Source of the DNA: Bradyrhizobium sp. YR681 | Lineage (GTDB): Bacteria; Pseudomonadota; Alphaproteobacteria; Rhizobiales; Xanthobacteraceae | Assembly (NCBI RefSeq): GCF_000282615.1 | Contig: NZ_AKIY01000259.1 | Coordinates: forward strand, 1 to 64,000 | DNA: 64,000 nucleotides | Direction of reading: 5' to 3' | Shown here: one piece after another, positions 34,365 through 62,893 of the stretch | Position numbering within the stretch: the first letter of the stretch is position 1 | Layout of the letters: each line of letters begins with the position of its first letter | The notes under the pieces: model-generated | Databases searched by the model: none | Seen by the model: only the letters and a program-made list of their open reading frames with translations | What the model was told of the DNA's origin: nothing | Program-made: the position numbers and the translations under genes

Positions 34365-34368
34365 GGCG

Positions 34369-35733: not shown

Positions 35734-35753
35734 AACGGCTACGGACAACAAAC

Positions 35754-36656: not shown

Positions 36657-36664
36657 GGCACAAG

Positions 36665-37549: not shown

Positions 37550-37606
37550 ACTGGACGGCGGCGGACCACACAAGAGTCCGGCCACGGGGAGCAGACGGAG
37601 CTGAGG

Positions 37607-39001: not shown

Positions 39002-39011
39002 GTGAAACGGC

Positions 39012-42452: not shown

Positions 42453-42494
42453 GTTCCTGGACGACCAACAATCAAAATGAGGGATGGAGGCAAC

Positions 42495-44896: not shown

Positions 44897-45259
44897 TCAT
44901 CGCCCCGACCGTCGCTGGGACGTTTCAATCCAGATTTTCTCGCCCGTGATCCTGACCGGATAGAGCCGCAACGGCGGGCTCGGCCATCCCGCAGTGATCG
45001 CCCCGTCACGCAGATCGAATGATGCGGCATGGCGCGGGCAGAGCAGCCGCCCCGCCGTCACCTGCCCGCGACCGAGATCGGCCTGTTCATGCGGGCATGC
45101 GCGGTCGCAGGCGACGACATTGCCGTCGTTCCAGATCACGAGCATGTCGCGGCCTGCGACACGAACAATCGTCTCTGCTTTCAGCCGGGCGAGATCGCAG
45201 ACCGGAATCCATCCGGTCTCGCTTGCCCCGTCATCCACCGAGGTAGGCTTTCCGCACAT
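44897..45259 (-). CDS. Rieske 2Fe-2S ferredoxin
   Basis: A protein of up to 120 residues with the Rieske cluster ligands CPHE and LLCPRHAASFDL in a soluble, NirD/BphF-like ferredoxin domain. It could carry electrons to an oxygenase or from the molybdenum enzyme of the same leftward operon. The start is uncertain: ATG 45259 lies 29 bases inside the end of the ABC ATPase gene, while GTG 45238 overlaps it by only eight. Last gene of the leftward run. Confidence 0.85.
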   Translation of the reverse strand: MCGKPTSVDDGASETGWIPVCDLARLKAETIVRVAGRDMLVIWNDGNVVACDRACPHEQADLGRGQVTAGRLLCPRHAASFDLRDGAITAGWPSPPLRLYPVRITGEKIWIETSQRRSGR

Positions 45260-45935
45260 GCTCGTTCTCGATCAGCTCGGCGCCTGGGCCCGACAGCACG
45301 ATGCGGCCGTTCTCGAGCAGATAGGCATGGTCGCACATCTCCAGCGCCGCGAACGCGTTCTGCTCGACCAGCAGCACCGTGGTGCCGGCATCGCGAATGC
45401 CGCGGATGATGGCAAAGGTGCGCTCGACGATGTTGGGCGCGAGCCCGAGCGAGGGCTCGTCGAACATGATCAGCCGCGGCCGCGACATCAGCGCGCGCCC
45501 GATCGCGAGCATCTGCTGCTCGCCGCCGGACAGCGTGCCCGCAGCCTGCCGGCGCCGCTCGGCGAGCCGCGGAAATTCCGTGTAGATGCGGTCGCGATCA
45601 GCCGCGATTTCGCCAAAACCACGACGGAGGTAGGCCCCCATGTCGAGATTTTCCTCGACGCTCATGTGCGGAAACACCCGCCGTCCCTCCGGACAATGCG
45701 CAATGCCGCTCGCCAGCACGCGCGGCGGCTTCGCGCCGGTGATGTCGATGCCTTCGAATCGCATTTGGCCTGCGCGCGGCGGCACGAGGCCGGAAATCGC
45801 GCGCAAAGTCGTGCTCTTGCCGGCGCCGTTGGCGCCGATCAGGGCAACCAGTTGGCCTGCCTTCACATCGAGCGAGATGCCGCGCAGCGCGGTGACGCCG
45901 CCATAGCCGCACACCATGTCGCGGATCTCAAGCAC
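45231..45935 (-). CDS. Branched-chain-type ABC transporter ATPase (LivF-like)
   Basis: A 234-residue ATPase with Walker A GANGAGKST, signature LSGGEQQML and Walker B LIMFDEPSLGLAP. The SHORT insert GISDVKAGQ-type N-terminus and HVRKAYLGG end are typical of LivF. Starts at GTG overlapping the LivG-like stop by eight bases. It works with the second ATPase and two permeases to import a hydrophobic or aromatic amide-type ligand bound by the LivK-like protein. Confidence 0.94.
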   Translation of the reverse strand: MLEIRDMVCGYGGVTALRGISLDVKAGQLVALIGANGAGKSTTLRAISGLVPPRAGQMRFEGIDITGAKPPRVLASGIAHCPEGRRVFPHMSVEENLDMGAYLRRGFGEIAADRDRIYTEFPRLAERRRQAAGTLSGGEQQMLAIGRALMSRPRLIMFDEPSLGLAPNIVERTFAIIRGIRDAGTTVLLVEQNAFAALEMCDHAYLLENGRIVLSGPGAELIENEHVRKAYLGG

Positions 45936-46710
45936 GGGCCGCTCCGTGTCCGAGATAGGCCTCGATCACGGCGGGATCGTTGCGGATCACGTCGGGCGTT
46001 CCTTCCGCGATGATGCGGCCATAGTTGAGCACCACGATGCGGTCCGAGACGGTCATCACCATCGGCATGTCGTGCTCGACCAGCAGGATCGTGATGCCGC
46101 GATCGCGGATGCTGCGGATCAGCTCGACAAACCGGTGGGTTTCGGACGCATTCATGCCCGAGACCGGCTCGTCGAGCAGCAGCATCGAGGGCTCGGCCGC
46201 AAGCGCCAGCGCGACGCCGACGAGGCGCTGCTCGCCGTAGGAGAGCGAGCCGGCAAGGTCGTGAGCCCGGCGTTCGAGCCCGACCCATTCGATCAGCTCG
46301 CTCGCGCGCTGCCGCAGCTTGCGCTCCGAGGCACGAGCGCCGGGCAGGCCAAGGATGGCATCGAGCAGCCGGACCCGGCCCTGTCGGTGCAGCCCGATCA
46401 GCAAATTGTCGTAGACGGTGTCGTTGGGAAACACGGAAGTGCGCTGGAAGGTGCGGATCAGGCCGAGATCGGCGATCTCGTGCGGCTTCAACCCGGTGAG
46501 CGTTGTGCCCTGATAGGTGACGTGGCCTGCGCTCGGCGTCAGGAAGCCGGTCATGACGTTGAAGGCGGTGGTCTTGCCGGCGCCGTTCGGCCCGATCAGG
46601 CTGACGATCTCGCCCTCGCCGACCGTAAAGCTCATATCGGAGATCGCAACCAGCCCGCCGAACCGGACGGCGACCTGATCGATCGTCATGGCAACGCTGC
46701 GCGCCGTCAT
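45928..46710 (-). CDS. Branched-chain-type ABC transporter ATPase (LivG-like)
   Basis: A 260-residue ATPase with Walker A GPNGAGKTT, signature LSYGEQRLV and Walker B MLLLDEPVSGMN. The C-terminal AEGTPDVIRNDPAVIEAYLG is diagnostic for LivG. ATG 46710 overlaps the LivM-like stop as ATGA; a GTG one codon upstream is possible. Confidence 0.94.
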   Translation of the reverse strand: MTARSVAMTIDQVAVRFGGLVAISDMSFTVGEGEIVSLIGPNGAGKTTAFNVMTGFLTPSAGHVTYQGTTLTGLKPHEIADLGLIRTFQRTSVFPNDTVYDNLLIGLHRQGRVRLLDAILGLPGARASERKLRQRASELIEWVGLERRAHDLAGSLSYGEQRLVGVALALAAEPSMLLLDEPVSGMNASETHRFVELIRSIRDRGITILLVEHDMPMVMTVSDRIVVLNYGRIIAEGTPDVIRNDPAVIEAYLGHGAARA

Positions 46711-47753
46711 CACGCCGGCTCCTTGGCGCCGGTTTCAGTGAGCGCGACCGGCGCCAGCGCGGTCGTCCCGCGCCGCCTGGCAAACCGCTGCGCGAGCGAC
46801 GGCACGATGCCGCGCGGCAGCACGAACAGGATGGCGATCAGCACGCCGCCATAGGCGATCCACTGCGCCTCCGGCGCCATGACCGGACGCAGCGCGACCG
46901 GCAGCAGCCCGAAGATCAGGCCGCCGACGACGGGCCCGGCGAGCGAGCCCTTGCCGCCGGAGATCACCATGATCACCATCGTGACGGTGTTGATGAAGGC
47001 GAAGACCTCGGGGTCGATGATCCGGATGTAATGCGCGTAAAGGCTGCCGGCGGCACCTGCGATCGCGGCCGAGATCACGGCTGCGATCGTCAGCGTCCTG
47101 GTGACGTCGATGCCGACGGAGACGGCGAGCGTCTCGTTCTCCATCAGCCCGCGCATGGCGCGGCCGAAATGGGAGCGAACGAGGCGCGCGATCAGGAGAT
47201 AGGCGATGAGCGCCACGACCAGCACGAGATAGTAGTTATGCATCTTGGTGCGCAGCGTCAGCTCACCGAATCCGGGCAAAGGCAGCGCGATAGAGGGAAT
47301 ATTGGTCAGCGCCAGCGGTCCCTGCGTCAGCTCAACCCAGTTCAACGCGACCAGCCGAACGACTTCGGCAAAGGAGATCGTGACAATGACGAAATAGGCT
47401 CCGCGAACCCGGAACGAGAGCAACCCGACGAAATAGCCGCACAATCCGGCGGCCAGGATCGCGAGCACGAAGCCGACGACGGGCGGCCAGGGCGTGTGGA
47501 CCAGACGGAAGCCTCCGGGCAGACCGGCGTCGAAGCCAAGCGATGTCAACGCGCTGACATAGGCGCCGATGCCAAAGAAGGCGATGTGACCGAGGCTGAG
47601 CTGGCCGGTGAAGCCGAGCAGAAGGTTGAGGCTCATCGCACCGATGACGAAGATGCCGGTCGTGATCAGCGCGTTGAGCAGATAGGGATCGCGCAGCCAG
47701 AGCGGCACCGAGGCAAGCGCTGCGACGGCAAGAATGGTGACGACGATCCTCAT
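46710..47753 (-). CDS. Branched-chain-type ABC permease (LivM-like)
   Basis: A 347-residue permease with about nine to ten membrane helices and the LivM hallmark LNLLLGFTGQLSLGHIAFFGIGAY near 45-68. The ATPase-contact loop RGLMENETLAVSVGIDV lies near 195. Start at 47753 overlaps the LivH-like stop. The last 35 residues are a basic, Ala-rich extension (LAQRFARRRGT) beyond the usual end. Confidence 0.94.
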   Translation of the reverse strand: MRIVVTILAVAALASVPLWLRDPYLLNALITTGIFVIGAMSLNLLLGFTGQLSLGHIAFFGIGAYVSALTSLGFDAGLPGGFRLVHTPWPPVVGFVLAILAAGLCGYFVGLLSFRVRGAYFVIVTISFAEVVRLVALNWVELTQGPLALTNIPSIALPLPGFGELTLRTKMHNYYLVLVVALIAYLLIARLVRSHFGRAMRGLMENETLAVSVGIDVTRTLTIAAVISAAIAGAAGSLYAHYIRIIDPEVFAFINTVTMVIMVISGGKGSLAGPVVGGLIFGLLPVALRPVMAPEAQWIAYGGVLIAILFVLPRGIVPSLAQRFARRRGTTALAPVALTETGAKEPA

Positions 47754-48622
47754 CCGACGCGCTCCGCGCGCGCGAACAGGCCGGTCGGCTTGAAGATGAG
47801 GACCGCGATGATGATCACGAAGCCCATGGCGTCGCGATAGCCTGAAGAGACGTAGCCGGCGCCGAGCTCCTCGGCGAGCGCCAGGATGAAGCCGCCGATC
47901 ACCGCGCCGGTGATGTTGCCGAGACCGCCGAGGATGACGATGGCGAAGGCCTTGACGGCGGCGAGGTCCCCCATCTGCGGGAAGATCACGTAAACCGGCC
48001 CGAGCAGAGCGCCTGCGGCGGCGGCGAGGCTGGAGCCAATCGCGAAGGTCGAGGTGTAGATCATGTCGACATTGACGCCCATCAGCGAGGCCGTGTCGTG
48101 GTCCTGGAACGTCGCACGCATCGCGCGTCCCAGGCTGGTCTTGTTGATGAGCAGATACGTCACCAGGATCAGCATCGCCGCGGCGGCAAGGACGAACAGG
48201 CGCAGCCAGGATACCGACACCGGCCCGAGCACCAGCGGCGCTTCGGGAAACGGCGTCGTCACCGATTTGGCGACACCGCCCCAGATCCACAACGTGCCGG
48301 ACTGCATCGCAATCCAGGCGCCGATCATCACCAGCATCGTGGTGTCGATGTCGGAGCCGCGCAGCGGCCGCAGCAACGTCAGCTCGATGGCGGCGCCCAG
48401 CAGCCATCCGGCCAGCACCGCCACGGGCAATGCCAGGAAGAAGTTCAGCCCGAACTGCTGCACCACGATGAACATGATGTAGGCGCCGAACGTGTACAGG
48501 ATGCCGTGCGTGAAATTCACGACATTCATGATGCCGAAGATCAAGGTCAGCCCGATGCCCAGCAGCGCATAGGTGCCGCCGAGCACGAGCATGTTGACCA
48601 GATGCTGGAGAAACTCGCTCAA
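47750..48622 (-). CDS. Branched-chain-type ABC permease (LivH-like)
   Basis: A 290-residue permease starting, I judge, at TTG 48622 (SEFLQHLVNMLVLGGTYALLG) behind GGGAA. A frame open further upstream lacks family similarity and overlaps repeat-like DNA. LivH features are GIMNVVNFTHGILYTFGAY and RAMRATFQDHDTASLMGVNVD. It forms the channel with the LivM-like protein. Confidence 0.92.
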   Translation of the reverse strand: MSEFLQHLVNMLVLGGTYALLGIGLTLIFGIMNVVNFTHGILYTFGAYIMFIVVQQFGLNFFLALPVAVLAGWLLGAAIELTLLRPLRGSDIDTTMLVMIGAWIAMQSGTLWIWGGVAKSVTTPFPEAPLVLGPVSVSWLRLFVLAAAAMLILVTYLLINKTSLGRAMRATFQDHDTASLMGVNVDMIYTSTFAIGSSLAAAAGALLGPVYVIFPQMGDLAAVKAFAIVILGGLGNITGAVIGGFILALAEELGAGYVSSGYRDAMGFVIIIAVLIFKPTGLFARAERVG

Positions 48623-48699
48623 GGCTGTTCCCGAATGAGTCGTTCGCAAATGACAGCGCGAAGCTGCCGGATGAGCTCTGAGATCTCGCCGCAAAACGC

Positions 48700-48746
48700 G
48701 ACCTCATCCTGAGGGCCCGCCGCAGGCGGGCGTCTCGAAGGATGGG
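48700..48746. repeat. REP-like palindromic intergenic repeat
   Basis: Hairpin GCCCGCC-gca-GGCGGGC (48715-48731) is nested inside CATCCT (48705-48710) and AGGATG (48739-48744), giving a double-stem element. It sits in the 222-base gap between the binding-protein and LivH-like genes. From memory, elements with CATCCTGAGG and CTCGAAGGATG ends are abundant between Bradyrhizobium and Rhodopseudomonas genes. It could terminate or stabilise the binding-protein mRNA. Confidence 0.65.
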
Positions 48747-48844
48747 CCGCAGGCAAGCTGCCCGCCACGCTTTTCTTCATATGCGATACCCTTACGTAGT
48801 CAGGCGAGAGTGGCAGTGTGCCGCCCTCGCCCCGACGAAGTACG

Positions 48845-49999
48845 TTAGAGCGTCTTCATCTCGACCTTGCCGTCGTTGATCTCGATCAGATAGACGTTCG
48901 GCTGGCTCTGCCCGCTCTCCTTGCCTTCGGGGCCGGACTTGCGGAACACGATGTCGCCGTTCAGGCCCTTGATGTTGATGTCCCAGAACGCCGCCTTGAT
49001 CGCAGCGGGCTCGGCCTTGCCGGCCTTCTCGATCGCGGCCGCGGCGGTGCGGATGCCGTCATAGCCGCGGAAGCTTTCGGTGCAGCCGGCGAACTCGAAG
49101 CCGCGCTTCTTCCATTCGGTGATGAAGTAGTTGGTGGCTTCCGGGTTCGGCGTCTTGTCCGGGAACCACGGCAGGAACGTGGTCAGATGCATGGTACCGT
49201 TGGCGGCAGCACCGGCCTGCGCGATGATCTGGTCCGGGTTCTGCGAGCCGCCGGTGGTGATGATGCGCTTCTTCAGGCCGAGCGCAGCGGCCTGCTTGAA
49301 GATCAGCGTGAGCTGGTCGACAGCGGTCGTGACGATCACAGTCTCGGAATCCGAGCTCTTGATCTTGGAGAGCTGGGCGCTCATGTCCTGCGCGCCCTGG
49401 TCCATGGTTTCGACCAGGCCGATGGTGATGCCCTTGTCCTTCATCATCTTGCTGAAGTCCTCGGCGGTGCCGCGGCCCCAGTCGTTGTTGATGACGAGGA
49501 AGTCCACCTTCTTCAGCGCGAGCTTGTCGACGATGCCCTTGAACGCGGCGGCCTCGACCGCCGAGGGCGGCGAGATGCGGAAGATGAAGGGATTGCCGGT
49601 CGTCGTAATCTTGCCCGAGGACGAGGTCTCCACCACCATCGGGGTCTCGTACTCCATCAGCTTCGGCATCACCGCGAGCGTCAGGCTCGAGCCCCAGGCG
49701 CCCATCAGCACCGGCACCTTGTCACTGGTGATAAGCTTTTCGGCGACGGCGGCGGCTTCCGTCGGGTTGCTCTTGTTGTCCTCGATGACGAGCTCGATCT
49801 TCTTGCCGAGAATGCCGCCCTTGGCGTTGATCTCGTCGGCGGCGATCTTGGCGCCATTGACGACGTAGGTGCCGGACGCCGCGAACGCGCCGGTGAGCGG
49901 CTCGTTGACGCCGATCTTGATGGTCTGCGCCCCTGCCGTGCCGCCGACCAGGGCCGTCGCCAGAGCGATTGTCCCAACCAGTCCGAGTGCTCGTGTCAT
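48845..49999 (-). CDS. Branched-chain-type ABC substrate-binding protein (LivK-like)
   Basis: A 384-residue periplasmic binding protein (Peripla_BP_6) with a signal peptide (LGLVGTIALATALVGGTAGA) and the mature start QTIKIGVNEPLTGAFAASG. Later conserved parts are VPVLMGAWGSSLTLAVMPKL and NNDWGRGTAEDFSKMM. GGAGAGACAAC precedes the ATG. It lies between the molybdenum hydroxylase genes and the transporter genes, so the ligand is probably the pathway substrate rather than leucine. Confidence 0.93.
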   Translation of the reverse strand: MTRALGLVGTIALATALVGGTAGAQTIKIGVNEPLTGAFAASGTYVVNGAKIAADEINAKGGILGKKIELVIEDNKSNPTEAAAVAEKLITSDKVPVLMGAWGSSLTLAVMPKLMEYETPMVVETSSSGKITTTGNPFIFRISPPSAVEAAAFKGIVDKLALKKVDFLVINNDWGRGTAEDFSKMMKDKGITIGLVETMDQGAQDMSAQLSKIKSSDSETVIVTTAVDQLTLIFKQAAALGLKKRIITTGGSQNPDQIIAQAGAAANGTMHLTTFLPWFPDKTPNPEATNYFITEWKKRGFEFAGCTESFRGYDGIRTAAAAIEKAGKAEPAAIKAAFWDINIKGLNGDIVFRKSGPEGKESGQSQPNVYLIEINDGKVEMKTL

Positions 50000-50073
50000 G
50001 TTGTCTCTCCAAATCCCACGCTGTTGATGTCTAGCAGTTCAGACTTCGTCACTCTCCGGCGCCGGCACGCCGA

Positions 50074-51267
50074 TCATTCCGCGCCACCTTTTCCGACGCG
50101 GCCAAACATGCGCGCCACCCGGGCGCGCAGAACGCCTGAAACAATCGACCAGCCACTGAGCTCCGCCGCAGCCGTCGGTTCAGACGGTGCACCGGACATG
50201 CGGCGATCGAGATTGCCCGCGAACTCCGCAACCAGGCGCTTGGCGAGATCGCGCACCAGGCCGGGCCGGCCGACCTGGGCCAGCATTCCCGTCAGCGTGT
50301 AGCCGATCGCGAGTTCAACGGCGGTCGCCGCGCCGCCTTCGAGCGGCAACAGGCGATAACGGATCTCACCTTGCGTCGCCGAATGGCTGCGCTGGTCGGT
50401 GCCGATGCCGACGATGCGCCCCGAGAGCGTTGCAGGATCGCGTTCGACCCGCGCTGCGCCCTCGAAGGACGCGGCGATCGGACCGAGCCTGACGCTGATC
50501 ATCCCTTCCACGCGCTCCGGCCTTGGCGGCGCCGTCAGCGAGACGCCGGGAAGGCAGGCCGCGATGCCCGCGATATCGTCGAACATCGCAAACACCTTTG
50601 CCGGCGCGTGCGGCAGCGTGAAGCGTTGGTCGAGGACGGTTGCCGGCGTGAAGTCGGGAATTCTGACCGGTGCGGCACTCTCTGTTTCAGGCGCCAACGC
50701 CTGCCGCGCAGGCCCCGACTCGCTTGAGCTGGACGTCGCCCGCCCCGATCCGGCGGGCCCGAGGCTGGTCCGGCCGCCACCTGTCTGCGGCGCGATGTTG
50801 CGCGCGCGCCTCGCCTCGATCACGGACTGCACCGCCCTGACGATGCCGACATAGCCGGTGCAGCGGCAGAGATTGCCGCTGAGGCCGACGCGAATGCGCC
50901 GCTCGTCAGAATCCGGCAGACGCAGCACCAGGTCGCGCGCGGAAACCAGCATCCCCGGGGTGCAATAGCCGCATTGCAGGGCGTGTTCGCGGGTGAAGGC
51001 GGCGCGCAGCTCGGTCGTGACCTCGTCCTCGTCGAGGCCTTCGATGGTGGTGATATCGGCGCCCTCGCAGGCCACCGCATAGGTGATGCAGGAGCGCGCC
51101 GGCACGCCGTCGAGCAGCACGGTGCAGGCGCCGCAGACGCCGTGCTCGCAGCCGAGATGAGTGCCGGTCAGATCGAGCTTGTCGCGGACGAAATCGGCAA
51201 GGCTGGTGCGCGGCTCGGCCGGTAGCTCCACCGCACGGCGATTGACCTGAAGTGCGATCGTATTCAT
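50074..51267 (-). CDS. Fusion of 2Fe-2S subunit (CoxS) and CoxG-like SRPBCC domain
   Basis: A 397-residue protein. Residues 1 to about 155 form a complete molybdenum-hydroxylase iron-sulfur subunit (CEHGVCGACTVLLDG, CGYCTPGM, NLCRCTGY). A Ser/Gly/Pro-rich linker (about 158-200) leads to a CoxG-like SRPBCC domain (about 208-350) with TLPHAPAKVFAMFDDI and an ACLPGV motif, then a basic tail. CoxG in CO oxidisers anchors the dehydrogenase to the membrane; here that function would be covalently attached. Coupled to the FAD subunit gene by ATGA. Confidence 0.92.
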   Translation of the reverse strand: MNTIALQVNRRAVELPAEPRTSLADFVRDKLDLTGTHLGCEHGVCGACTVLLDGVPARSCITYAVACEGADITTIEGLDEDEVTTELRAAFTREHALQCGYCTPGMLVSARDLVLRLPDSDERRIRVGLSGNLCRCTGYVGIVRAVQSVIEARRARNIAPQTGGGRTSLGPAGSGRATSSSSESGPARQALAPETESAAPVRIPDFTPATVLDQRFTLPHAPAKVFAMFDDIAGIAACLPGVSLTAPPRPERVEGMISVRLGPIAASFEGAARVERDPATLSGRIVGIGTDQRSHSATQGEIRYRLLPLEGGAATAVELAIGYTLTGMLAQVGRPGLVRDLAKRLVAEFAGNLDRRMSGAPSEPTAAAELSGWSIVSGVLRARVARMFGRVGKGGAE

Positions 51268-52100
51268 GCCGCGGCCTCCAGGACGGCGCGCTTCAGCACG
51301 CTGACATGGATATGGCGCTGGGTGGCGTCGTCGATGCCGGCCTTTGTGAGCAGCGCGTCGGCGACGCGGGCATCGAAGCGCTGCTTGTAGTCGGCCGCGA
51401 TCCTGCCGCCGAACAACTCCGCGGCATCGGTGACGACGATCGGCGTCGTGTCGATCGCGCCGATCACGATTCGCGCCGAAGCGGCGGAAGGATCGACCAG
51501 CACCGCGCCGATGGCGTGGGCGAACTCGCCGGTCTTGCGGCAGCTCTTGGCATAGCCCCAATGGGCTGACGCCGCGCGCACCGGCACGTGGATCGCCTCG
51601 ACAATCTCGCCCGCTTGCAGCGCGGATTCAAGGGCGCCGACAACAAAGGCCTCGATCGCCATCGTGCGTGCGCCGGCGAGACTGCGCAGCGTCACCCGCG
51701 CGCCCAGGGCCGCGAGCGAAGAAATCCAGTCCGCCGCGGGATCGGCGTGGCTGAGCGAGCCGCCGATGGTGCCGCGGTTGCGCACCGCGCGATAAGCGAT
51801 GTTGGCTGCGACGGCGCGCATCGCGCCCCGGGTCACATCGGCCGTACGCCCATCCTCGATATCGGCATGGGTGACCAGGGCGCCGAGCACCAGTTCGCCA
51901 CCGGATATTTCGGCACGCTTGAGCTCGGCAAGGCCGGAGATGTCCACGATCAGCTCCGGCTGCACCAGCCGCAGATTGAGCATCGGCCCGAGCGACTGGC
52001 CGCCGGCGATGATCTTTGCAAAACCGCTGCTTGCGGCCAGCATCGACAGAGCCGCATTGAGATCGCGCGGGCGCTCGTAGCGGAAAGGAGCCGGCTTCAT
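51264..52100 (-). CDS. FAD-binding subunit of second molybdenum hydroxylase (CoxM-like)
   Basis: A 278-residue FAD subunit with the FAD-binding stretches AKIIAGGQSLGPMLNLRL near 27-44 and VRNRGTIGGSLSHADPAAD near 105-123. It has a CO_deh_flav_C domain at the end. The motifs differ from the first cluster's FAD subunit, so the two enzymes are not recent duplicates. Both ends overlap neighbouring genes by ATGA, giving a tightly coupled L-M-S order. Confidence 0.94.
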   Translation of the reverse strand: MKPAPFRYERPRDLNAALSMLAASSGFAKIIAGGQSLGPMLNLRLVQPELIVDISGLAELKRAEISGGELVLGALVTHADIEDGRTADVTRGAMRAVAANIAYRAVRNRGTIGGSLSHADPAADWISSLAALGARVTLRSLAGARTMAIEAFVVGALESALQAGEIVEAIHVPVRAASAHWGYAKSCRKTGEFAHAIGAVLVDPSAASARIVIGAIDTTPIVVTDAAELFGGRIAADYKQRFDARVADALLTKAGIDDATQRHIHVSVLKRAVLEAAA

Positions 52101-54472
52101 GCCGCGCTCCTTTCGGCTGTGCGCGCCGCCAGCACGGCTTCGACGACACGGTGCGGCGTGATCGGCGACTGCATCAGCTCGACGCCGAGCGGGCGCAGCG
52201 CGTCGTTGACGGCGTTGGCAATCGCGGCCGGCGGCGCGATCGCACCGCCCTCGCCGATTCCCTTGACGCCGAACTGCGTATAGGGCGACGGCGTCTCCAT
52301 GTGATCAAGACGCGCGGCGGGCACCTCGGTCGCGCCCGGCAGCAGATAATCGGCGAGCGTCGTCGCCAGCGGCTGGCCGGAGGCATCGAACGGCATCTCC
52401 TCGTAAAGGGCAGTGCCGATGCCTTGCGCGAGGCCGCCATAGATCTGGCCGTCAACGACGAGCGGATTGACCAGAACGCCGCCGTCCTCGACGATCACGT
52501 AGTCGAGGATCTCGACCTCGCCGACATCGGGGTCGACCGCGACCACGGCCGCATGCGCGGCGTAGCTGAAGGTGCCGCTGTCGCGCACCGGCTTGTAGCC
52601 CTGCGTCACTTCCAGCCCGCCGGGATCGACATCGGCCGGGAGATCCTGCGGGCGGCGATACCAGGTGTGCGCGATCGTTTGAATGCTGACGCTGCCATTG
52701 ACGCCGCGCACCTCGCCGTTCTGCAACACCACCGAGGCCGGATCGTGTTGCAACAACTTGGCGCCGATGCGCAGCGCACGCTCGCCGAGTTCGCGGCAGG
52801 CGGTGGCGACCGCACCGCCCGCCATCACCATCGAGCGCGAACCCCAGGTGCCGGTCGAATAGGGCGTCATCGCGGTGTCGCCGAGGATGATGCGGATCTT
52901 TGCGACGTCGATGCCCAGCATCTCATGCGCGACCTGGGCCAGCGTCGTCTCCATGCCCTGCCCGTGCGAATGCACGCCGACGCGCAATTCGAGGCCACCG
53001 TCCGGCGTCAACCGCGCCGAGGCCTGCTCGTGGCCCGGGACCATCGGAATGCCCCAGCCGGAATAGACGGAGGTGCCGTGCGCGGCTTGCTCGCAATAGA
53101 TGGAGACGCCGACGCCGATGCGGCGGCCATCGGTCTCGCCCTGGCTCTGTTTGGCGCGAATGGAAGCGATATCGATGGCAGCCAGCGCGCGACGCATCGC
53201 TTCCGGATAATCGCCGCTGTCAAAGTGCTTCCTGGTGATGTTGTCAAACGGCATTTCGTCCGGCAGCACCAGATTGCGCAGCCGCACCTCGCCGGGTTCA
53301 AGCCCGGCTTCGGCCGCCACGAGATCGAGCATCAGCTCCAGCGCAAAGCAGACGCCGGTGCGCGCGACGCCGCGATACGGCAGGATCGGACATTTGTTGG
53401 TGGCGACCGAGAAGGTGCGGCAGCGATAGGCCGGCATCTTGTACGGACCGGGCAGAATGCTCGCGACCTGCGCGGCTTCCAGACACGCCGAGAACGGATA
53501 GGACGAGTAGGCGCCGGAATCCACCGTCGCTTCGCAATCGATGCCACGCAGCGTACCGTCGCGGTCGGCATAGACCGTGATCTTGTAATGATGCTCGCGG
53601 CAATTGGAGCTGGCGACGAGATGCTCGCGGCGGTCCTCGGTCCAGCGCACGGGATGGCCGCGCTGCATCGTCAGCCAGGACAGGCAGACCTCTTCGGGCA
53701 GCAGAATTCCCTTGTGGCCAAAGCCGCCGCCGACATCCGGCGAGATGATGCGGATCTGGCCCTCTTCCATGCCGAGGCATTCGGCAAGCCCGCTGCGCGT
53801 GATGTGGGGCATCTGCGCCGCCGAATGCAGCGTGAGCTGATCGAGCCGACGCTCGAAGGTCGCAACCACGCCGCGCCCCTCCAGCGGCGACATGCATTGC
53901 CGCGCCGTCGAAATCTCGCGCGTCAGCTTGATCGGCGCGTCGAGCGCGGCGGAGATATCGACCTCGTAATTGGTCTCGAGGAAGACGTTGTCGCCCCAAT
54001 GCTCGTGCACCAGCGCCGAGCCGGGCTCGCGCGCCTTCAGCATGTCGGTGATGGCGGGCAGCTCTTCCAGATCGAGCGTCACGGAGGCCGCGATGTCCTC
54101 GGCCTCGGCCCGCGTCGGCGCGAGGCACATGGCGACGAGCTCACCGACCTGGCGCACCTTGCCGGTGGCGAGCACCGGCTGCTCGGAGATCTTGAAGCCG
54201 GGAAGCCCCGAGACCGCGCGGATCGGCTTGATGCCGACGAGATCGGCTGCCGTGAACACGCTGCCGCGATAGCGTTCGGGCACGTGGATGCCGCGAATCC
54301 GCGCATGCGCCATCGGGCTGCGCACGAAGGCGACGTCCTGGAGGCCCGCGAGCCTGATGTCGGCGACATACTGGCCGCGGCCGCGCATCAGGCGGTCGTC
54401 CTCCTTCCGCGGCAGCCGCGCGCCCACGCCCTGCCCGGACTTGCCGTGAGGAAACTCTCGCTCGTTGCGCAC
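52097..54472 (-). CDS. Molybdopterin-binding large subunit of second molybdenum hydroxylase (CoxL-like)
   Basis: A 791-residue undivided large subunit. It has the hammerhead domain (LMRGRGQYVADIRLAGL), the cofactor motif DVGGGFGHKG near 255, LPYRGVARTG near 370 and the catalytic Glu in GVKGIGEGGAIAPP near 760. The PYRGVAR stretch lacks the Cys-containing loop of true CO dehydrogenase, so the substrate is another heterocycle or aldehyde. GTG 54472 is chosen because AAGGAGG lies eight bases upstream; a GTG six codons earlier is possible. Confidence 0.92.
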   Translation of the reverse strand: MRNEREFPHGKSGQGVGARLPRKEDDRLMRGRGQYVADIRLAGLQDVAFVRSPMAHARIRGIHVPERYRGSVFTAADLVGIKPIRAVSGLPGFKISEQPVLATGKVRQVGELVAMCLAPTRAEAEDIAASVTLDLEELPAITDMLKAREPGSALVHEHWGDNVFLETNYEVDISAALDAPIKLTREISTARQCMSPLEGRGVVATFERRLDQLTLHSAAQMPHITRSGLAECLGMEEGQIRIISPDVGGGFGHKGILLPEEVCLSWLTMQRGHPVRWTEDRREHLVASSNCREHHYKITVYADRDGTLRGIDCEATVDSGAYSSYPFSACLEAAQVASILPGPYKMPAYRCRTFSVATNKCPILPYRGVARTGVCFALELMLDLVAAEAGLEPGEVRLRNLVLPDEMPFDNITRKHFDSGDYPEAMRRALAAIDIASIRAKQSQGETDGRRIGVGVSIYCEQAAHGTSVYSGWGIPMVPGHEQASARLTPDGGLELRVGVHSHGQGMETTLAQVAHEMLGIDVAKIRIILGDTAMTPYSTGTWGSRSMVMAGGAVATACRELGERALRIGAKLLQHDPASVVLQNGEVRGVNGSVSIQTIAHTWYRRPQDLPADVDPGGLEVTQGYKPVRDSGTFSYAAHAAVVAVDPDVGEVEILDYVIVEDGGVLVNPLVVDGQIYGGLAQGIGTALYEEMPFDASGQPLATTLADYLLPGATEVPAARLDHMETPSPYTQFGVKGIGEGGAIAPPAAIANAVNDALRPLGVELMQSPITPHRVVEAVLAARTAERSAA

Positions 54473-54499
54473 CTCGGCGCCCTCCTTCACCGCGCGGCC

Positions 54500-55777
54500 T
54501 TACGCCGCGACGGCCTGCGGCAGGATCGGTGCGACCGCGTCGAAGCGCGTGCCGGCGCGCAGACAGAAGGCCGGCTGCAGCAGGCGCTCGGCGATCACCT
54601 CGTTCTTCTCGTTGTCGGTCAGAACGAAGCGGCCGTTCTTCTCGGAGAGCACGGAGACGTCGGCGTCCATGCCGACCCTGAGCGCGCCGATCTCGGCGCT
54701 GCGGCCGAGCATCTTGGCCGGATTGGAGGTGACCATGGGGACCACCTGCTCCAGCGACAGGCCGAGCGCCATCATCGAGCTCATCGCCTGGACCAGGCTG
54801 AATTTTGCCTGGCCGGCGAACGGATGGTTCTCCTCGTCCTCGTGCTGGTCCGGCGTCCCGGCCGGCGCGGGCACATGGGTGTTGTAGCCGTGAATGTCGG
54901 CGCCGAGCGTGGTCGGAATGATGCCGGCGGCGATCGCCTTCTTCGCGAGCCGGTAGGAGAAATGGCTGCCGTGGCCGACATCGACCTTCAGGCCACGGTC
55001 GAGCGCGGCCTGGATCACCGGATGCACCTCGCCCTCGCGGTTGACGAAGCCGCCGGGATGGCGCGTGAAGGGATGAGCGAGCACGTCGCCTTCGCGCAGC
55101 AGCGGGATCACGCGCGTGAGGATGGTGTCGGCATCCTCGCCATTGGCGCCGCTCTCGGGCAGGCCCCACAGCTGGCCGAAATGCACATAGACCGGCAGAT
55201 CGGCACGCTTGCCGATCTCCGCCGCCATCTCGATGACGCGGATGCCCCAGCGCGCGAAGCCGCCGATCTCGGCGTGGGCCTTGATGCCGCGCACGATGTC
55301 GAGATTGGCCGTCGCCGCCTTGACGGTCGCGTCGATGTCGACGCCGTCGGGGCTGTAGAGCTGCGGATAGAAGTGTCCCTCAAGCCCGCCAACGAGATAG
55401 GCCGACAGGAAGGCGTAGACGCGCGTATGGGACGGCTCGGCGATGAAATGACGAAAGCCCGGCAGCGTCATGCAGGACGGGCCACCCTGGTCGATCACCG
55501 TCGTCACACCCGACTCCACGCCGACCATGTCGGGGTTCATGCCGAAACGTCCCGAGACATATTGATAGACATGCGCATGGGTGTCGATCAGCCCGGGCAG
55601 CACCAGCTTGCCGCCGACATCGACGACCTCCTTCGCGCTGGTCGGCAGGATATCCGCCGCGACGGCCGCGATCTTGCCATTGCGGATGGCGACGTCCCTG
55701 AGACCGTCCACGCCCGAGGCCGGGCAGATCACCCGGCCGCCTTGCAGCAAGAGATCGAAGCTGGCAGTGACGGACAT
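54500..55777 (-). CDS. Amidohydrolase (dihydroorotase/deacetylase-like)
   Basis: A 425-residue metal-dependent hydrolase. It has the composite N-terminal beta domain, the metal motif GLIDTHAHVY near 56-65, further His in KAHAEIG, VYVHFGQ and DVGHGSHFSY, and the barrel-closing Asp in LGADIHG. It resembles cyclic amidohydrolases and the 'amidohydrolase/deacetylase' family. AGAGGAGAG lies just before the ATG. First gene of the leftward operon and directly downstream of the palindromic operator, so it is probably substrate-induced through the MarR protein. Confidence 0.88.
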   Translation of the reverse strand: MSVTASFDLLLQGGRVICPASGVDGLRDVAIRNGKIAAVAADILPTSAKEVVDVGGKLVLPGLIDTHAHVYQYVSGRFGMNPDMVGVESGVTTVIDQGGPSCMTLPGFRHFIAEPSHTRVYAFLSAYLVGGLEGHFYPQLYSPDGVDIDATVKAATANLDIVRGIKAHAEIGGFARWGIRVIEMAAEIGKRADLPVYVHFGQLWGLPESGANGEDADTILTRVIPLLREGDVLAHPFTRHPGGFVNREGEVHPVIQAALDRGLKVDVGHGSHFSYRLAKKAIAAGIIPTTLGADIHGYNTHVPAPAGTPDQHEDEENHPFAGQAKFSLVQAMSSMMALGLSLEQVVPMVTSNPAKMLGRSAEIGALRVGMDADVSVLSEKNGRFVLTDNEKNEVIAERLLQPAFCLRAGTRFDAVAPILPQAVAA

Positions 55778-55821
55778 GGCGCTCTCCTCTATCTCTCGCC
55801 CAGGCGGCTCGCCGCCCGAAT

Positions 55822-55839
55822 TACGAAGCATGCTTCGTA
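55822..55839. promoter_or_regulatory. Perfect 18-base palindrome, MarR operator (site 1)
   Basis: TACGAAGCATGCTTCGTA is perfectly symmetric and lies 44 bases before the leftward amidohydrolase start and 80 before the MarR gene. Two related copies (55845-55860 and 56699-56716) flank the MarR gene. Location in all the promoters around a MarR gene is the normal signature of its operator. Confidence 0.7.
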
Positions 55840-55844
55840 TTTTA

Positions 55845-55860
55845 CAAAAGCAAGCTTCGT
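55845..55860. promoter_or_regulatory. Imperfect second operator copy (site 2)
   Basis: The right half AAGCAAGCTTCGT keeps the GCTTCGT arm of site 1; twelve of sixteen positions match its core. Its centre is 22 bases from that of site 1, two helical turns, so two MarR dimers could bind on the same face of the DNA. Confidence 0.5.
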
Positions 55861-55919
55861 GCCATGATCTGGCGGTGGCGAGCGCGTTCGAATCGAGCTA
55901 AGCGCGTCGGAGTTTTGGG

Positions 55920-56438
55920 TTGGGAGAGCGTGCATTGCGGCAAGCACAGAAGCGTCGCAGCGGGGCCAAGGGGGCTAGGCATCGCCCCTGGCCATTGTCG
56001 CAACGTCCCGGCTATCTGATCCGGCGGCTGCATCAGATTCACGTCGCGCTGTTTCAGGATGCCTGCGGCGCGTTCGAGGTCACGCCGCTGCAATACAGCC
56101 TGCTCTCGGCGCTGGCGGTGCGCGAAACCGCCGATCAGACCACTTTGGCGGCCGATATCGCCCTCGACCGGACCACGACAACAGGCGCATTGAAGCGGCT
56201 CGCCGCGCGACATCTGGTCGAGCGCGCCGTCAACAAGGACGATCGCCGCGCGCGTCTGTGCCGGTTGACGCCTGAGGGCGCCGCCCTATTGGTCAAGATC
56301 GAGGGCGCGGCGCGGCAGGCGCATCGCGCGACGCTTGGCGATTTGAGCGAGCGGGAACAGGCGCTCTTCATCGAAATGATGCAGCGCATCGTCGCCGGCA
56401 ACCCAACTCGCGACAGCGCCGCTGCCCTATTCGATTAG
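55920..56438 (+). CDS. MarR-family transcriptional regulator
   Basis: About 160-172 residues with a MarR winged helix. It shows LIRRLHQIHVALFQDAC (helix 1), TPLQYSLLSALAVRE, recognition segment DRTTTTGALKRLAARHLVER and wing KDDRRARLCRLTPEG. It is divergent from the leftward catabolic operon and upstream of the permease gene. The frame opens at TTG 55920 with another TTG at 55935, so the start is uncertain. MarR proteins usually repress and release DNA on binding an aromatic or heterocyclic ligand. Confidence 0.9.
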   Translation: MGERALRQAQKRRSGAKGARHRPWPLSQRPGYLIRRLHQIHVALFQDACGAFEVTPLQYSLLSALAVRETADQTTLAADIALDRTTTTGALKRLAARHLVERAVNKDDRRARLCRLTPEGAALLVKIEGAARQAHRATLGDLSEREQALFIEMMQRIVAGNPTRDSAAALFD

Positions 56439-56698
56439 CGGCTGCTGCTGCAGTTTTAAGTGGGGCTGCTCAATTTATCATCGCACCGCTGCCCGGCTGA
56501 GCGACCTCCTCCGCCTTTTGCCGGCAAGCTCAAACGGACCAACACTGCCGCAAACTTGCAGAGGCGAGCCGGCGCGTGAGGTCGGAGCGCGCTTGAAATT
56601 TCAAGTGCAATCCGGCGCGAGGCGCGTTCCCTCCGGTATCGGCGCACGCCCTTGTTCCAGCGGCTTCACGACCAATGGCACGATTTATGCTGCGATGA

Positions 56699-56716
56699 TG
56701 CGAAGCGTGCTTCGTA
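56699..56716. promoter_or_regulatory. Operator copy before the NCS1 permease gene (site 3)
   Basis: TGCGAAGCGTGCTTCGTA matches site 1 in sixteen of eighteen positions. It ends two bases before the GGGGG ribosome site of the permease gene, so binding would block transcription there. It extends the inferred MarR regulon to the permease-formamidase pair. Confidence 0.65.
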
Positions 56717-56728
56717 TTGGGGGATGTC

Positions 56729-58147
56729 ATGACGGATTCCGAACTTCGCGCTGATATTCACAGCATTGAACCAATTCCGGATGCGGACCGGGACTCGACC
56801 GGCCCGCAGCAGATGTGGATCTGGGCCGGCGCCAACATCGCGCCGGTCAACTGGGCGCTCGGTGCGCTCGGCATCATTCTGAAACTCGGCCTGATGGAGA
56901 CGATCGCGGTCATCGTGCTCGGCAACATCGTGGGCTGCGCGATCTTCGCGACCTTCACGGTGATGGGGCACAAGACCGGCGTCAACCAGATGGTCTTGAG
57001 CCGCTCCGCCTTCGGCGTCCGCGGCGCCTATTTGCCCAGCATCCTGATGTTCGTGATGACGCTGGGCTGGATCGGCGTGAACACCTACTTCCCGGTGAAG
57101 GTCTCGATGGGCATCCTCGGCCAGTTCGGCATGCCCGACACCTGGTTCATCGAGATCGTCGTCATCACGCTGGTGATGGCCGTCCAGGTGCTGATCGGCA
57201 TCTACGGCTTCTATGCGATCCGCACCTTCGAGAAATACACCGTGCCGCCCACCATCGCCATCATGGTGCTGATGAGCGTATTGGCGTGGACGCGTCCCGG
57301 CGTCGTCAACTGGGGTCTCACCACCTCGCTGCCGCCGGGCGCGCATCTGGCGATGCTGACCCTGCTGATGACCGCGATCGGCGTCGGCTGGGGTATTTCC
57401 TGGGTGACCTGGGCCTCCGACTATTCGCGCTTCGTGCCGCGCAACGTGTCGTCGAAATCCGTGTTCTGGTACAGCTATATCGGCATGTTCGTGCCGACGG
57501 TCTGGCTCGGCATTCTCGGCGCGACCATCGCCTCGACGACGCTGGACACCGATCCCGCCAAGATGGTGAGCGCGGTGTTCGGCGGACCGGTCAGCATCCT
57601 CGTGCTCTTGATGGTGCTGCACGGCCCGATCGCCACCAACATCCTCAACGTCTATTCGGCGACGCTGGCTGCCCTGAGCGCGGGGCTGAAATTCTCGCGC
57701 TTCTGGCTCACCGTCATCGTCGGCGTCGCCGGTTATCTGGTCACGCTGTACTTCATCTTCGCGCCGTCCTTTGCGAAGGCGTTCGACAACTGGATGATCA
57801 GCCTCCTGCTGTGGATGAGCCCGTGGGCCGGTGTGGTGCTGGCGGACTTCTTCATCAAGCGGAAAGGCAAGATCGAGGTCGCCGAGCTCTATCGTTCGCC
57901 CGAGACCAGCGCCTATGGCGACATCAACTGGGCCGGCATGATCGCCTTCTTCGCGGGCCTCGTCGCCGGATGGCTGGTCGAAGACGGCCTTGTCGGCGCG
58001 CTCCAGGGGCCGATCTCGACCAACCTGCTCGGCGGCGCCGATCTGAGCTGGCTGTTCGGCATCGGGGTTGCGGGCCTCGTCTATCTCGGGCTCGGCAAGC
58101 TCGTGACGTCGCCCTCCTCGATCGTTGCCAGCAGCGCAGGCAGGTAG
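56729..58147 (+). CDS. NCS1-family permease (cytosine/purine/hydantoin type)
   Basis: A 472-residue membrane protein with twelve transmembrane helices and the NCS1 opening MWIWAGANIAPVNWALGALG near 30-49. Further core motifs are KTGVNQMVLSRSAFGVRGAYLPS and the helix-8 region around LNVYSATLAAL. Relatives import cytosine, purines, allantoin, hydantoins or thiamine precursors with Na+ or H+. GGGGG lies five bases before ATG 56729. The formamidase gene follows after fourteen bases. Control by the adjacent MarR protein is indicated by the operator. Confidence 0.92.
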   Translation: MTDSELRADIHSIEPIPDADRDSTGPQQMWIWAGANIAPVNWALGALGIILKLGLMETIAVIVLGNIVGCAIFATFTVMGHKTGVNQMVLSRSAFGVRGAYLPSILMFVMTLGWIGVNTYFPVKVSMGILGQFGMPDTWFIEIVVITLVMAVQVLIGIYGFYAIRTFEKYTVPPTIAIMVLMSVLAWTRPGVVNWGLTTSLPPGAHLAMLTLLMTAIGVGWGISWVTWASDYSRFVPRNVSSKSVFWYSYIGMFVPTVWLGILGATIASTTLDTDPAKMVSAVFGGPVSILVLLMVLHGPIATNILNVYSATLAALSAGLKFSRFWLTVIVGVAGYLVTLYFIFAPSFAKAFDNWMISLLLWMSPWAGVVLADFFIKRKGKIEVAELYRSPETSAYGDINWAGMIAFFAGLVAGWLVEDGLVGALQGPISTNLLGGADLSWLFGIGVAGLVYLGLGKLVTSPSSIVASSAGR

Positions 58148-58161
58148 CGGCTGATACATCG

Positions 58162-59112
58162 ATGGACCATTTTCTGCGATCCACACCCGGCAACGTCCAG
58201 TGGGGACTCTGGGATGGACGGCTGAAACCGGTGCTCCGGATTGTATCCGGAGACCGGGTGACCATCGAGACGCTCTCGGGCGAACCGGACGATCTGCCCG
58301 ATCCGTCGCTCGGCTATGATAGCGTTCCCGGACATGCGGAGGTGCTCGCCAGCGCCTTCCGCGGTCCGGGGCCGCATCTCCTCACCGGTCCCGTCGCCAT
58401 CGAGGGCGCCGAGCCCGGCGACGTGCTCGAAGTGCGCGTCCTCGACATCCAGCTGCGCTGCAATTGGGGCTGGAACATCCAGGTGCCGACGCTCGGCACC
58501 CTGCCGGAGGATTTCCCGGAGTTCCGCCGCATCCACATTCCGCTCGACCGCGCGCGCAACATCGCAAAACTGCCCTGGGGGCAGGAGCTGCCGCTCTCCC
58601 CCTTCTTCGGCAATTTCGGTGTCGCGCCGCCGCTCGCCTGGGGCCGGCTGTCCTCGAAGGAGCCGCGCGCATTCGGAGGCAACATGGACAACAAGGAGCT
58701 CGGCGCCGGCAGCACGCTGTATTTTCCGGTGTTCGTGCCGGGCGCATTGTTCTCCGCCGGCGACGGTCACGCGCTGCAGGGCGACGGCGAAGTCTGTCTG
58801 ACCGCGATCGAGGCCGCACTGACAGGCACCTTCGAATTCCACATCCGCCGCGATCTCAAGCTCTCCTCCCCGCGCGCCGAGACGGCGTCGGACTGGATCA
58901 CCATGGGCTTTGACGAGGATCTCGACGATGCCGCCAAGGCCGCGCTGCGCGACATGATCGCGCTGATCCGCGAGCACAGCGGCCTCAGCGCGCAGGATGC
59001 CTATACGCTCTGCTCGATCGCCGCGGACCTCAGGGTCACACAGCTGGTCGATGGCAACAAGGGCATTCACTGCGTGCTGGCGAAGTCCCGCATGCCCCTG
59101 AAGCAAATCTAG
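58162..59112 (+). CDS. Acetamidase/formamidase family protein
   Basis: A 316-residue member of the FmdA_AmdA family, which hydrolyses formamide, acetamide or other simple amides to ammonia and the acid. Typical stretches are RSTPGNVQWGLWD, GPVAIEGAEPGDVLEV, FGNFGVAPP, FGGNMDNKELGAGSTLYFPV and GDGHALQGDGEVC. Cotranscribed with the permease. Its likely role is to finish nitrogen release from the imported compound. The TAG stop overlaps the stop of the opposing RraA-type gene. Confidence 0.93.
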   Translation: MDHFLRSTPGNVQWGLWDGRLKPVLRIVSGDRVTIETLSGEPDDLPDPSLGYDSVPGHAEVLASAFRGPGPHLLTGPVAIEGAEPGDVLEVRVLDIQLRCNWGWNIQVPTLGTLPEDFPEFRRIHIPLDRARNIAKLPWGQELPLSPFFGNFGVAPPLAWGRLSSKEPRAFGGNMDNKELGAGSTLYFPVFVPGALFSAGDGHALQGDGEVCLTAIEAALTGTFEFHIRRDLKLSSPRAETASDWITMGFDEDLDDAAKAALRDMIALIREHSGLSAQDAYTLCSIAADLRVTQLVDGNKGIHCVLAKSRMPLKQI

Positions 59113-59819
59113 GCCCGATCGCTCCAGACCGCGTCGATCTCGACGATGCCGGCGGCTTCGAACAGGCTCTTCATCCCCGCCACGTCGTAAAGCGTCTGCC
59201 CCTCATCGAGCCGCCGCTTGATCTCGGCCTCCTTCGCCACCCGCGCCTCGGCATTGCGAACGGCGGCCTCGACCTGAGCAGGCGGGATCGCCATGACGCC
59301 GTCGGCATCGCCGACGATCAGGTCGCCGGGATTGACGGTCACGCCCGATACGACCACGGGCACATTGACCGCGCCGGGGCCGCGCTTGCCGGGATAGGAC
59401 ACCGAGATGCAGGAGGCGAACACCGGAAACGCCATCTCGGTGATTTGCAGGGAATCCCGCATCGCGCCGTCGATCACGGCGCCGCCGAGTTTCCTGATCC
59501 GGCTGTAGTAGGTTGCGATCTCGCCCCACAGCGCGCCCTGCGGCGAGCCGCCATTGGTCAGCACGAGAATGTCCCCGGGCGCTGCGACCCGGAAGGCGGC
59601 ATGCAGCATGAGATTGTCGCCGGGAAAGTTGAACGAGGTGATCGCCTGGCCGCAGATCCGGGCCGTCGGGAACAGCGCGCGCATCTGCGGCTGCATCAGG
59701 CATTGCCGCCCGACCACCGCGCCCAATCCCTCATGCAGATCGGCGACATTGATGCGGTTGGCGCGCGCGACAAGCGCGGGATCGAGCCGGGGAATTCGTG
59801 TGTAGACGACTGATTGCAT
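59109..59819 (-). CDS. RraA family protein (4-hydroxy-4-methyl-2-oxoglutarate aldolase-like)
   Basis: A 236-residue RraA-fold protein. The loop DILVLTNGGSPQGALWGEIATYY, the metal and substrate signature GAVIDGAMRDS near 115-125 and GDLIVGDADGV near 180-190 match the class II pyruvate aldolases LigK and ProA rather than the RNase E inhibitor. Such aldolases split 4-carboxy-4-hydroxy-2-oxoadipate into pyruvate and oxaloacetate. The LigI-type hydrolase upstream in the same run supports a catabolic role. AGGAC precedes the ATG. Confidence 0.88.
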   Translation of the reverse strand: MQSVVYTRIPRLDPALVARANRINVADLHEGLGAVVGRQCLMQPQMRALFPTARICGQAITSFNFPGDNLMLHAAFRVAAPGDILVLTNGGSPQGALWGEIATYYSRIRKLGGAVIDGAMRDSLQITEMAFPVFASCISVSYPGKRGPGAVNVPVVVSGVTVNPGDLIVGDADGVMAIPPAQVEAAVRNAEARVAKEAEIKRRLDEGQTLYDVAGMKSLFEAAGIVEIDAVWSDRA

Positions 59820-59869
59820 TGTGATGTCCTTTCGAAGGTGGGAATGGTCTCGTCAGCGGCGATAGCGTG

Positions 59870-60844: not shown

Positions 60845-60872
60845 TGGCAACTCCGTTCAGCCCGATCAGCCA

Positions 60873-61829: not shown

Positions 61830-62002
61830 GTTCCACCTAGCCCAATGAGTTGAATCGGGCCGCGCAGGCCCTCTCATCAGGTCAATGAAACGATCCGCCC
61901 GGCTCATCATCATTATATCTGATGATTGCGTAATGCATCCGCCTTGATCGCGTCGATCAGGCGTTGGTCGAGCAGATGGCGGGACGGCATGGAGCATGTC
62001 GG

Positions 62003-62851: not shown

Positions 62852-62893
62852 CTCGAAAGCACCGATCGCGGCGCAGAGCGCGCGATCCCCTCC

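Follow-up and report, generated by a model that had tools for sequence, protein, structure and literature searches.

Organization of the locus

The window analysed here is a stretch of 64,000 nucleotides from Bradyrhizobium sp. YR681 (positions 1 to 64,000 of NCBI contig NZ_AKIY01000259.1, here C259), in which two divergent catabolic units and the gene of a MarR-family regulator occupy positions 44,897 to 59,112. On the minus strand, from 55777 down to 44897, an amidohydrolase gene is followed by genes for CoxL, CoxM, a CoxS/CoxG fusion, a Liv binding protein, LivH, LivM, LivG, LivF and a Rieske protein, while the plus strand carries marR, an NCS1 permease gene and a gene for an FmdA_AmdA-family amidase (55920 to 59112). 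The gene calls of an earlier note on this DNA are borne out by Pfam for the Rieske protein, the Liv components, the CoxS-CoxG fusion, CoxM, CoxL, the amidohydrolase, MarR, the NCS1 permease and, at the level of family, the FmdA_AmdA protein, for which the name given there, 'formamidase', finds no support (73 bits against a cut-off of 500 for the NCBIfam model of formamidase FmdA, NF045496, in a version scored 16 residues short).

The first gene of the long minus-strand operon (54500-55777) encodes an amidohydrolase/deacetylase-family metallohydrolase that scores 448 bits with NF006689 (cut-off 371), stays below the cut-off of the related TIGR03583 (195 versus 432) and, among the matches listed (25 of 68 models), reaches at most 66 bits with hydantoinase, dihydroorotase and allantoinase models, which require at least 357. 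It matched PDB 2ogj at 7e-40, which we take to be Atu3266, an amidohydrolase of COG3964; the likeness is one of sequence family, and some characterised COG3964 amidohydrolases act on acetyl-mandelate esters. Downstream lie a CoxL-type molybdopterin subunit (52097-54490, start codon uncertain; Pfam MoCoBD_1 and MoCoBD_2), whose best solved relative is quinoline 2-oxidoreductase (1t3q, E 1.2e-142), a CoxM-type FAD subunit (51264-52100; FAD_binding_5) and a CoxS [2Fe-2S] subunit fused to CoxG (50074-51267), with Fer2, Fer2_2 and COXG in a single protein. The importer genes encode a Liv-type substrate-binding protein (48845-49999; Peripla_BP_6), a LivH-type permease (47750-48628, start uncertain) and a LivM-type permease (46710-47753), both with BPD_transp_2, and the LivG-type (45928-46713; ABC_tran, BCA_ABC_TP_C) and LivF-type (45231-45935; ABC_tran) ATPases; a Rieske [2Fe-2S] ferredoxin gene (44897-45259; Rieske) ends the series.

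On the plus strand, marR (55920-56438, TTG start) encodes a putative repressor of 172 residues that exceeds the cut-off of Pfam MarR (PF01047, 37.6 versus 24.6 bits) and whose closest solved chains are 6pcp, 6pco and 4fht. The NCS1-family permease (56729-58147) gives 176 bits with Pfam Transp_cyt_pur, above the cut-off, and 157.5 bits with TIGR00800, under it, and the FmdA_AmdA-family amidase (58162-59112; 120 bits with its Pfam model) more plausibly starts at 58162.

Conservation was assessed over 46 Bradyrhizobium-group loci (L041-L086) from a single MarR-similarity scan of named genomes, which gave 47 loci, one of them (L087, 27% identity) excluded; the 46 are mutually related, and two (L083, L086) are short contigs that each lack one side of the locus. 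A further 32 rows (L093-L106, L112-L129) belong to the same clade, termed clade A, and represent 31 distinct loci, L127 being the same record as L080; they include variant 2, a set of 13 Bradyrhizobium loci (L112-L124). The sister clade comprises 18 loci (L107-L111, L130-L142) with amidohydrolases about 43-65% identical. Across the genus, MarR matches at E 1e-35 occur in 94 of 265 genomes, some of them also among the named loci (the genus being read as Bradyrhizobium from such shared records), and from these 94 the amidohydrolase-marR region was taken for 16 and the upstream region for 20 (G235 in both). To read gene neighbourhoods, selected queries were run by tblastn alongside a simple open reading frame (ORF) caller, an approach by which further genes may be missed.

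Ten core genes are retained in 43 of the 46 loci, and the conserved core is the amidohydrolase, CoxL, CoxM, CoxS-CoxG, the Liv importer and the NCS1 permease. The FmdA_AmdA gene is accessory; it is present in 22 of 44 loci, and its absence from the other 22 weakens the earlier suggestion that ammonia is released through a 'formamidase'. The Rieske gene stands behind LivF in 20/20 Bradyrhizobium upstream regions, where it is also adjoined in every case by a gene for an alpha/beta hydrolase akin to kynurenine formamidase, with 9n8r, 2pbl and 4e11 as solved relatives. In the window this gene (43935-44789, plus strand) is convergent with the long operon and lies beyond the range first reported; outside the genus it directly follows the amidohydrolase gene in 14 loci, and judging from this linkage it seems to belong to the core system.

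Two operators over two predicted sigma-54 start sites

The 18-bp perfect palindrome on which the earlier note was built is exact at 55822-55839 (predicted MarR operator O1, TACGAAGCATGCTTCGTA), and its 16/18 copy before the permease gene is present at 56699-56716 (predicted operator O2, TGCGAAGCGTGCTTCGTA, two mismatches to O1). A third site, a 'half-degenerate copy' at about 55844-55861, has 6 mismatches and must be given up as an operator, because the bases conserved in 46 aligned sequences match a sigma-54 promoter instead. In the alignment upstream of marR (window plus 45 loci), AGCAA.C..C.TGCCAT is nearly or fully invariant within this copy and, read on the minus strand, these kept bases are those of a sigma-54 promoter, TGGCACGNNNNTTGCT, with GG and GC ten bases apart. 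The alignment upstream of the permease gene likewise reveals TGGCACGATTTATGCT. In place of three operators there are thus two operators and two predicted sigma-54 promoters, both of which had been missed.

Judged against the consensus used (GG-N10-GC, with TGGCAC / TTGC), the predicted -24/-12 element of the amidohydrolase-Cox-Liv operon (TGGCACGAAGCTTGCT, 55849-55864, minus strand) has no mismatch and that of the NCS1 operon (TGGCACGATTTATGCT, 56676-56691, plus strand) has one. As a rule of thumb, transcription begins twelve bases after the -12 position, which places the predicted +1 near 55838 and near 56702, respectively; both operators therefore cover predicted start sites, O1 extending from -1 to +17 of the amidohydrolase operon and O2 from -3 to +15 of the NCS1 operon. 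The amidohydrolase start codon is more plausibly at 55777, 61 nt past the predicted transcript start, than at 55831, inside the operator.

The sigma-54 consensus is matched five times in the window with at most 2 mismatches, and two of these matches sit 11 and 9 bp from the operators on the appropriate strands; with at most 1 mismatch there are 3 matches, compared with 0-2 per shuffled window (n=50). No operator match with up to 3 mismatches occurs in 50 windows shuffled in two-base blocks. The regulon scan for the palindrome suggested in the earlier note returned, over the whole genome, O1 as the sole site without mismatch, O1 and O2 as the sole sites with at most 2, and one further site at up to 3 mismatches (C197:16339). 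The last lies inside an ORF and was rejected as a further operator; it is probably noise, since our own estimate, assuming equal base frequencies, puts chance matches in the genome at about 2.7 for up to 3 mismatches and about 0.16 for up to 2.

Operator and promoter elements are retained together among relatives, where presence of the operator means up to 4 mismatches. Each side of the locus carries it in 45/46 Bradyrhizobium-group loci, the single miss being a short contig in either case, and on each side the sigma-54 element accompanies it in 45/45 loci. On the amidohydrolase side this element has no mismatch in 31 loci and one in 14, with the operator 10-13 bp away; on the permease side it has none in 1, one in 40 and two in 4, with the operator 8-14 bp away. 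Before the amidohydrolase gene the operator occurs once in 27 loci, twice in 16, three times in one and four times in one, copies in the two- and three-copy loci being spaced 24 to 27 bp. Copy number thus differs among species, with four tandem copies before marR at L067:6034-6140 and three at L071:9848-9919, mostly 27 bp apart.

In the further rows of clade A the operator was found in 32/32 (21/32 with at most 3 mismatches), and in the sister clade in 0/18, so that it goes with this MarR clade. Among all distant rows a sigma-54 element precedes the amidohydrolase gene in 25/49 (L127 duplicating L080), distributed as 17/19 in clade A outside variant 2 (16/18 without L127), 5/12 in variant 2 and 3/18 in the sister clade. 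Internal controls in the same rows gave 2/43 before CoxL and 2/42 before MarR; the two matches before CoxL, both perfect and both in sister loci (L107, L137), could be genuine promoters. In six of six variant-2 rows tested, the neighbouring nitroreductase operon has a sigma-54 element as well. Conservation of the sites, at which MarR would act, lends good support to the earlier proposal of a MarR regulon of two divergent units.

A proposed double lock

Taken together, these features make it reasonably probable that two divergent catabolic operons, serving uptake and breakdown of an N-heterocycle, are under a double lock of sigma-54 and MarR. RpoN-polymerase would sit at -24/-12, dependent on an ATP-driven activator acting from a distance (most likely a global regulator such as NtrC, when nitrogen is short), and a MarR dimer on the start-site palindrome would, from the geometry, block opening or escape until an inducer frees it; from this arrangement we infer a lock with two keys. 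Seven sigma-54 activators were found in the genome (E 1e-20 or better), none of them on contig C259, and two (the C101 pair) lie within an apparent ntrBC-ntrYX cluster by ORF reading, which makes a global nitrogen activator plausible. Two candidate enhancer regions are conserved upstream of the NCS1 promoter: a non-coding block after marR (TCAATTTATCATCG, 56445-56500), retained at varying distance to the promoter and weak or absent in L080, L081, L082 and L084, and a CTTGAAA element (56592-56613) near -100 of the NCS1 start in the alignments, absent from L055 and L061. No motif was recognised in either block.

Several observations speak against this scheme. The sigma-54 element is found, at up to 2 mismatches, before just 5 of 12 variant-2 amidohydrolase genes, a shortfall that weighs against a universal sigma-54 rule, and in the 9 variant-2 loci with both features the second operator lies upstream of the neighbouring operon's sigma-54 element by more than 100 bp. 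Outside the genus most sigma-54 elements carry 2 mismatches, and two of seven NCS1 rows (L094, L100) have none. Eleven of the 32 distant clade rows reach an operator match only at 4 mismatches, among them L128, in which no marR gene was seen. NtrC, NifA and IHF sites were not recognised upstream on inspection by eye, and the alpha/beta hydrolase gene of the window is on the other strand and without an operator.

MarR-controlled catabolic operons are usually driven by sigma-70, and this, together with the 7/12 variant-2 loci whose amidohydrolase gene is preceded by no clear sigma-54 element, would suit an ordinary MarR regulon with sigma-70 promoters, in which the sigma-54-like elements are fortuitous or relics. 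We consider this unlikely, given the GG-N10-GC spacing and the consensus bases in 45/45 loci on each side at a near-fixed distance from the operator, and the occurrence of such elements in other genera.

The closest working analogue of the proposed double lock is the Escherichia coli rut operon (RutR, NtrC, sigma-54), which provides nitrogen from an N-heterocycle by way of a nucleobase permease and has RutR as its specific repressor. The two systems would share nitrogen utilisation from an N-heterocycle, a nucleobase-type permease, RpoN and a specific repressor; they differ in that the rut repressor is TetR-type and the enzymes are others, and in that the repressor sites here cover two predicted sigma-54 starts. 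Binding of RpoN holoenzyme to the rutA-rutR spacer in vitro is described in PMC8743547. NicR, PicR and BpsR, which exert MarR-type control over pyridine degradation, resemble the present system in their MarR repressor, palindromic sites and Mo hydroxylase, and are set apart from it by the predicted sigma-54 promoters here and by the fact that no pyridine ring-cleavage gene was noticed (none was searched for). The new element appears to be that MarR operators are positioned over sigma-54 start sites and conserved there; in the open-licence literature, by title or the start of the abstract, no paper was found on this cluster or on a MarR operator at a sigma-54 start site. If correct, a MarR-type repressor on sigma-54 start sites across several genera would constitute a clean natural AND gate.

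The pathway and its substrate

From the gene set, the NCS1 permease and the Liv importer would take in an N-heterocycle, the CoxL/M/S-G molybdenum hydroxylase would oxidise its ring, with the Rieske ferredoxin as a possible electron partner, and the amidohydrolase would open the oxidised ring, leaving a chain for the alpha/beta hydrolase to cleave. The earlier claim of N-heterocycle breakdown is plausible, given the solved relative of CoxL, the AllG, HpxZ and amidase genes of the sister clade and the riboswitch beside variant 2 (both described below). The substrate would probably be a cyclic ureide or the guanidine analogue of one, and the best single candidate route, as a guess, runs from hydantoin through parabanate to oxalurate. 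Tentatively, this would amount to a new oxidative route in which the Mo hydroxylase acts on a cyclic ureide or guanidine ring, taking a hydantoin type to parabanate or doing the same with the imino analogue; ring opening by the COG3964 amidohydrolase would then give oxalurate or an acylguanidine, and clade-specific enzymes would finish the breakdown, with the clade A genes behind a MarR/sigma-54 AND gate of nitrogen state and substrate. Finishing would fall to the alpha/beta hydrolase in clade A and to AllG, HpxZ and amidase proteins in the sister clade, and the alpha/beta hydrolase gene was not seen in the 18 sister loci by tblastn with the chosen queries.

AllG-like (DUF1116) genes are carried by 13 of those 18 loci, HpxZ by 3, a PRK08310-type amidase by 4 and a gamma-glutamyltransferase-family gene by a single one. 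The counts include the sister loci that supplied query sequences (two for AllG, one each for HpxZ and the amidase); a weaker relative (35%) of the gamma-glutamyltransferase-family gene occurs in the clade A locus L097. In L130 and L131 the HpxZ and amidase proteins exceed their NCBIfam cut-offs, and the AtzE and gamma-glutamyltransferase models stay below theirs; for the DUF1116 proteins, L130 and L132 gave no NCBIfam match, and that of L107 passes Pfam AllG. HpxW-Z form an oxalurate branch, and these sister genes resemble such an Hpx/All branch (HpxW-Z, AllFGH), from which the present system differs in that AllG, HpxZ and the amidase are not in the window and that Hpx/All includes no ring oxidation by a Mo hydroxylase. 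According to PMC11326118, oxalurate is the compound on which AllFGH, the oxamic transcarbamylase of E. coli, acts, and the title of an older paper cited there reports that parabanic acid induces oxamate transcarbamylase. Together with the sister genes, the action of AllFGH on oxalurate suggests that the amidohydrolase acts on an oxidised ring of the hydantoin type and forms oxalurate or a similar ureide.

Against the ureide proposal, AllG occurs in the sister loci, to the extent examined, without companions, AllF and AllH being neither named in the annotations nor searched for; moreover, AllG is missing from the genome of the window, whose single HpxZ gene lies unlinked on C251. As this genome is also without DUF1989 and the guanidine-I riboswitch, the ureide and the guanidine ideas both rest on relatives.

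The same architecture may instead serve a guanidine-type ring (an iminohydantoin, a creatinine-like compound or an aminoimidazole) that releases guanidine or methylguanidine, a possibility that we regard with considerable doubt. It is prompted by variant 2, in which a set of nitroreductase, polar amino acid importer, RidA and DUF1989 genes lies across marR and the second operator, with DUF1989 in 12/13 loci and UAAP1 and UAAP2 both in 10/13. Just past the sigma-54 element of that operon, its leader contains a guanidine-I riboswitch in 8 of 12 variant-2 loci scanned (L112, L113, L115, L116, L117, L118, L120 and L124), and none at gathering score in L114, L119, L121 and L122. L094, outside the genus, carries this riboswitch too, ahead of UAAP1, UAAP2 and a urea carboxylase-family gene. 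These neighbourhoods resemble the guanidine carboxylase and carboxyguanidine deiminase operons that have guanidine riboswitches, and DUF1989 proteins include carboxyguanidine deiminase (PMC11271267). Furthermore, a PhyH-family (phytanoyl-CoA) dioxygenase gene recurs in four sister clusters (L130, L137, L140, L142); it may or may not be related to the 2-oxoglutarate dioxygenase that demethylates methylguanidine in another system (PMC12508155). Should this neighbourhood carry meaning, a cyclic guanidine would be the ring in the variant-2 and L094 strains. Against this stand the riboswitch in 0/9 other clade A loci and 0/10 sister loci scanned (of 18), its absence from the window region and genome alike, the absence of DUF1989 from the genome, and the chance that the variant-2 neighbour operon is unrelated.

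We hold in similar doubt that the ring is a pyridine, quinoline or other non-ureide heterocycle. This would agree with quinoline 2-oxidoreductase as the best solved relative of CoxL, and with 6pcp, one of the closest solved MarR chains, which is presumably BpsR of nicotinate control; CoxL and MarR are large families, so that the nearest solved relative says little. The AllG, HpxZ and amidase genes of the sister clusters fit this substrate class poorly, and no pyridine ring-cleavage gene was noticed, though no search was aimed at such genes. That the operon encodes a carbon monoxide or simple aldehyde oxidase is highly improbable: aerobic CO dehydrogenase (CODH) and glyceraldehyde dehydrogenase are the top-scoring NCBIfam models for CoxL, but both are under their cut-offs (560 of 950 and 547 of 790), PYRGVARTG stands in the active-site loop in place of the comparison motifs AYRCSFR or AYRGAGR, and neither the amidohydrolase nor the importer fits.

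If the cyclic ureide or guanidine reading is right, the linked genes predict that soil bacteria, legume-associated ones included, have an undescribed pathway for nitrogen scavenging; COG3964 amidohydrolases would also gain a physiological context, directly testable in some relatives through their guanidine riboswitches.

Neighbouring gene clusters

A second ureide-type cluster is present in the same genome (L167, C251:28000-46838), where HpxZ lies beside amidases 31-34% like the sister-clade amidase, a MarR-like gene and genes for an importer of apparently oligopeptide type. In the window, the plus-strand run at 34342-43469 (ORFs read by eye) contains amidohydrolase, dioxygenase-like, FAD oxidase and sugar-type ABC importer genes and stops just before YciI-like and alpha/beta hydrolase genes. 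On the other side, the module at 59109-63943 (RraA-like, flavin reductase, LysR, amidohydrolase 2, luciferase-like monooxygenase) was rejected as part of the system, standing beside the regulon in just 2/46 loci (L043, L049); its flavin reductase is extended at the C-terminus by about 160 residues that match no Pfam family.

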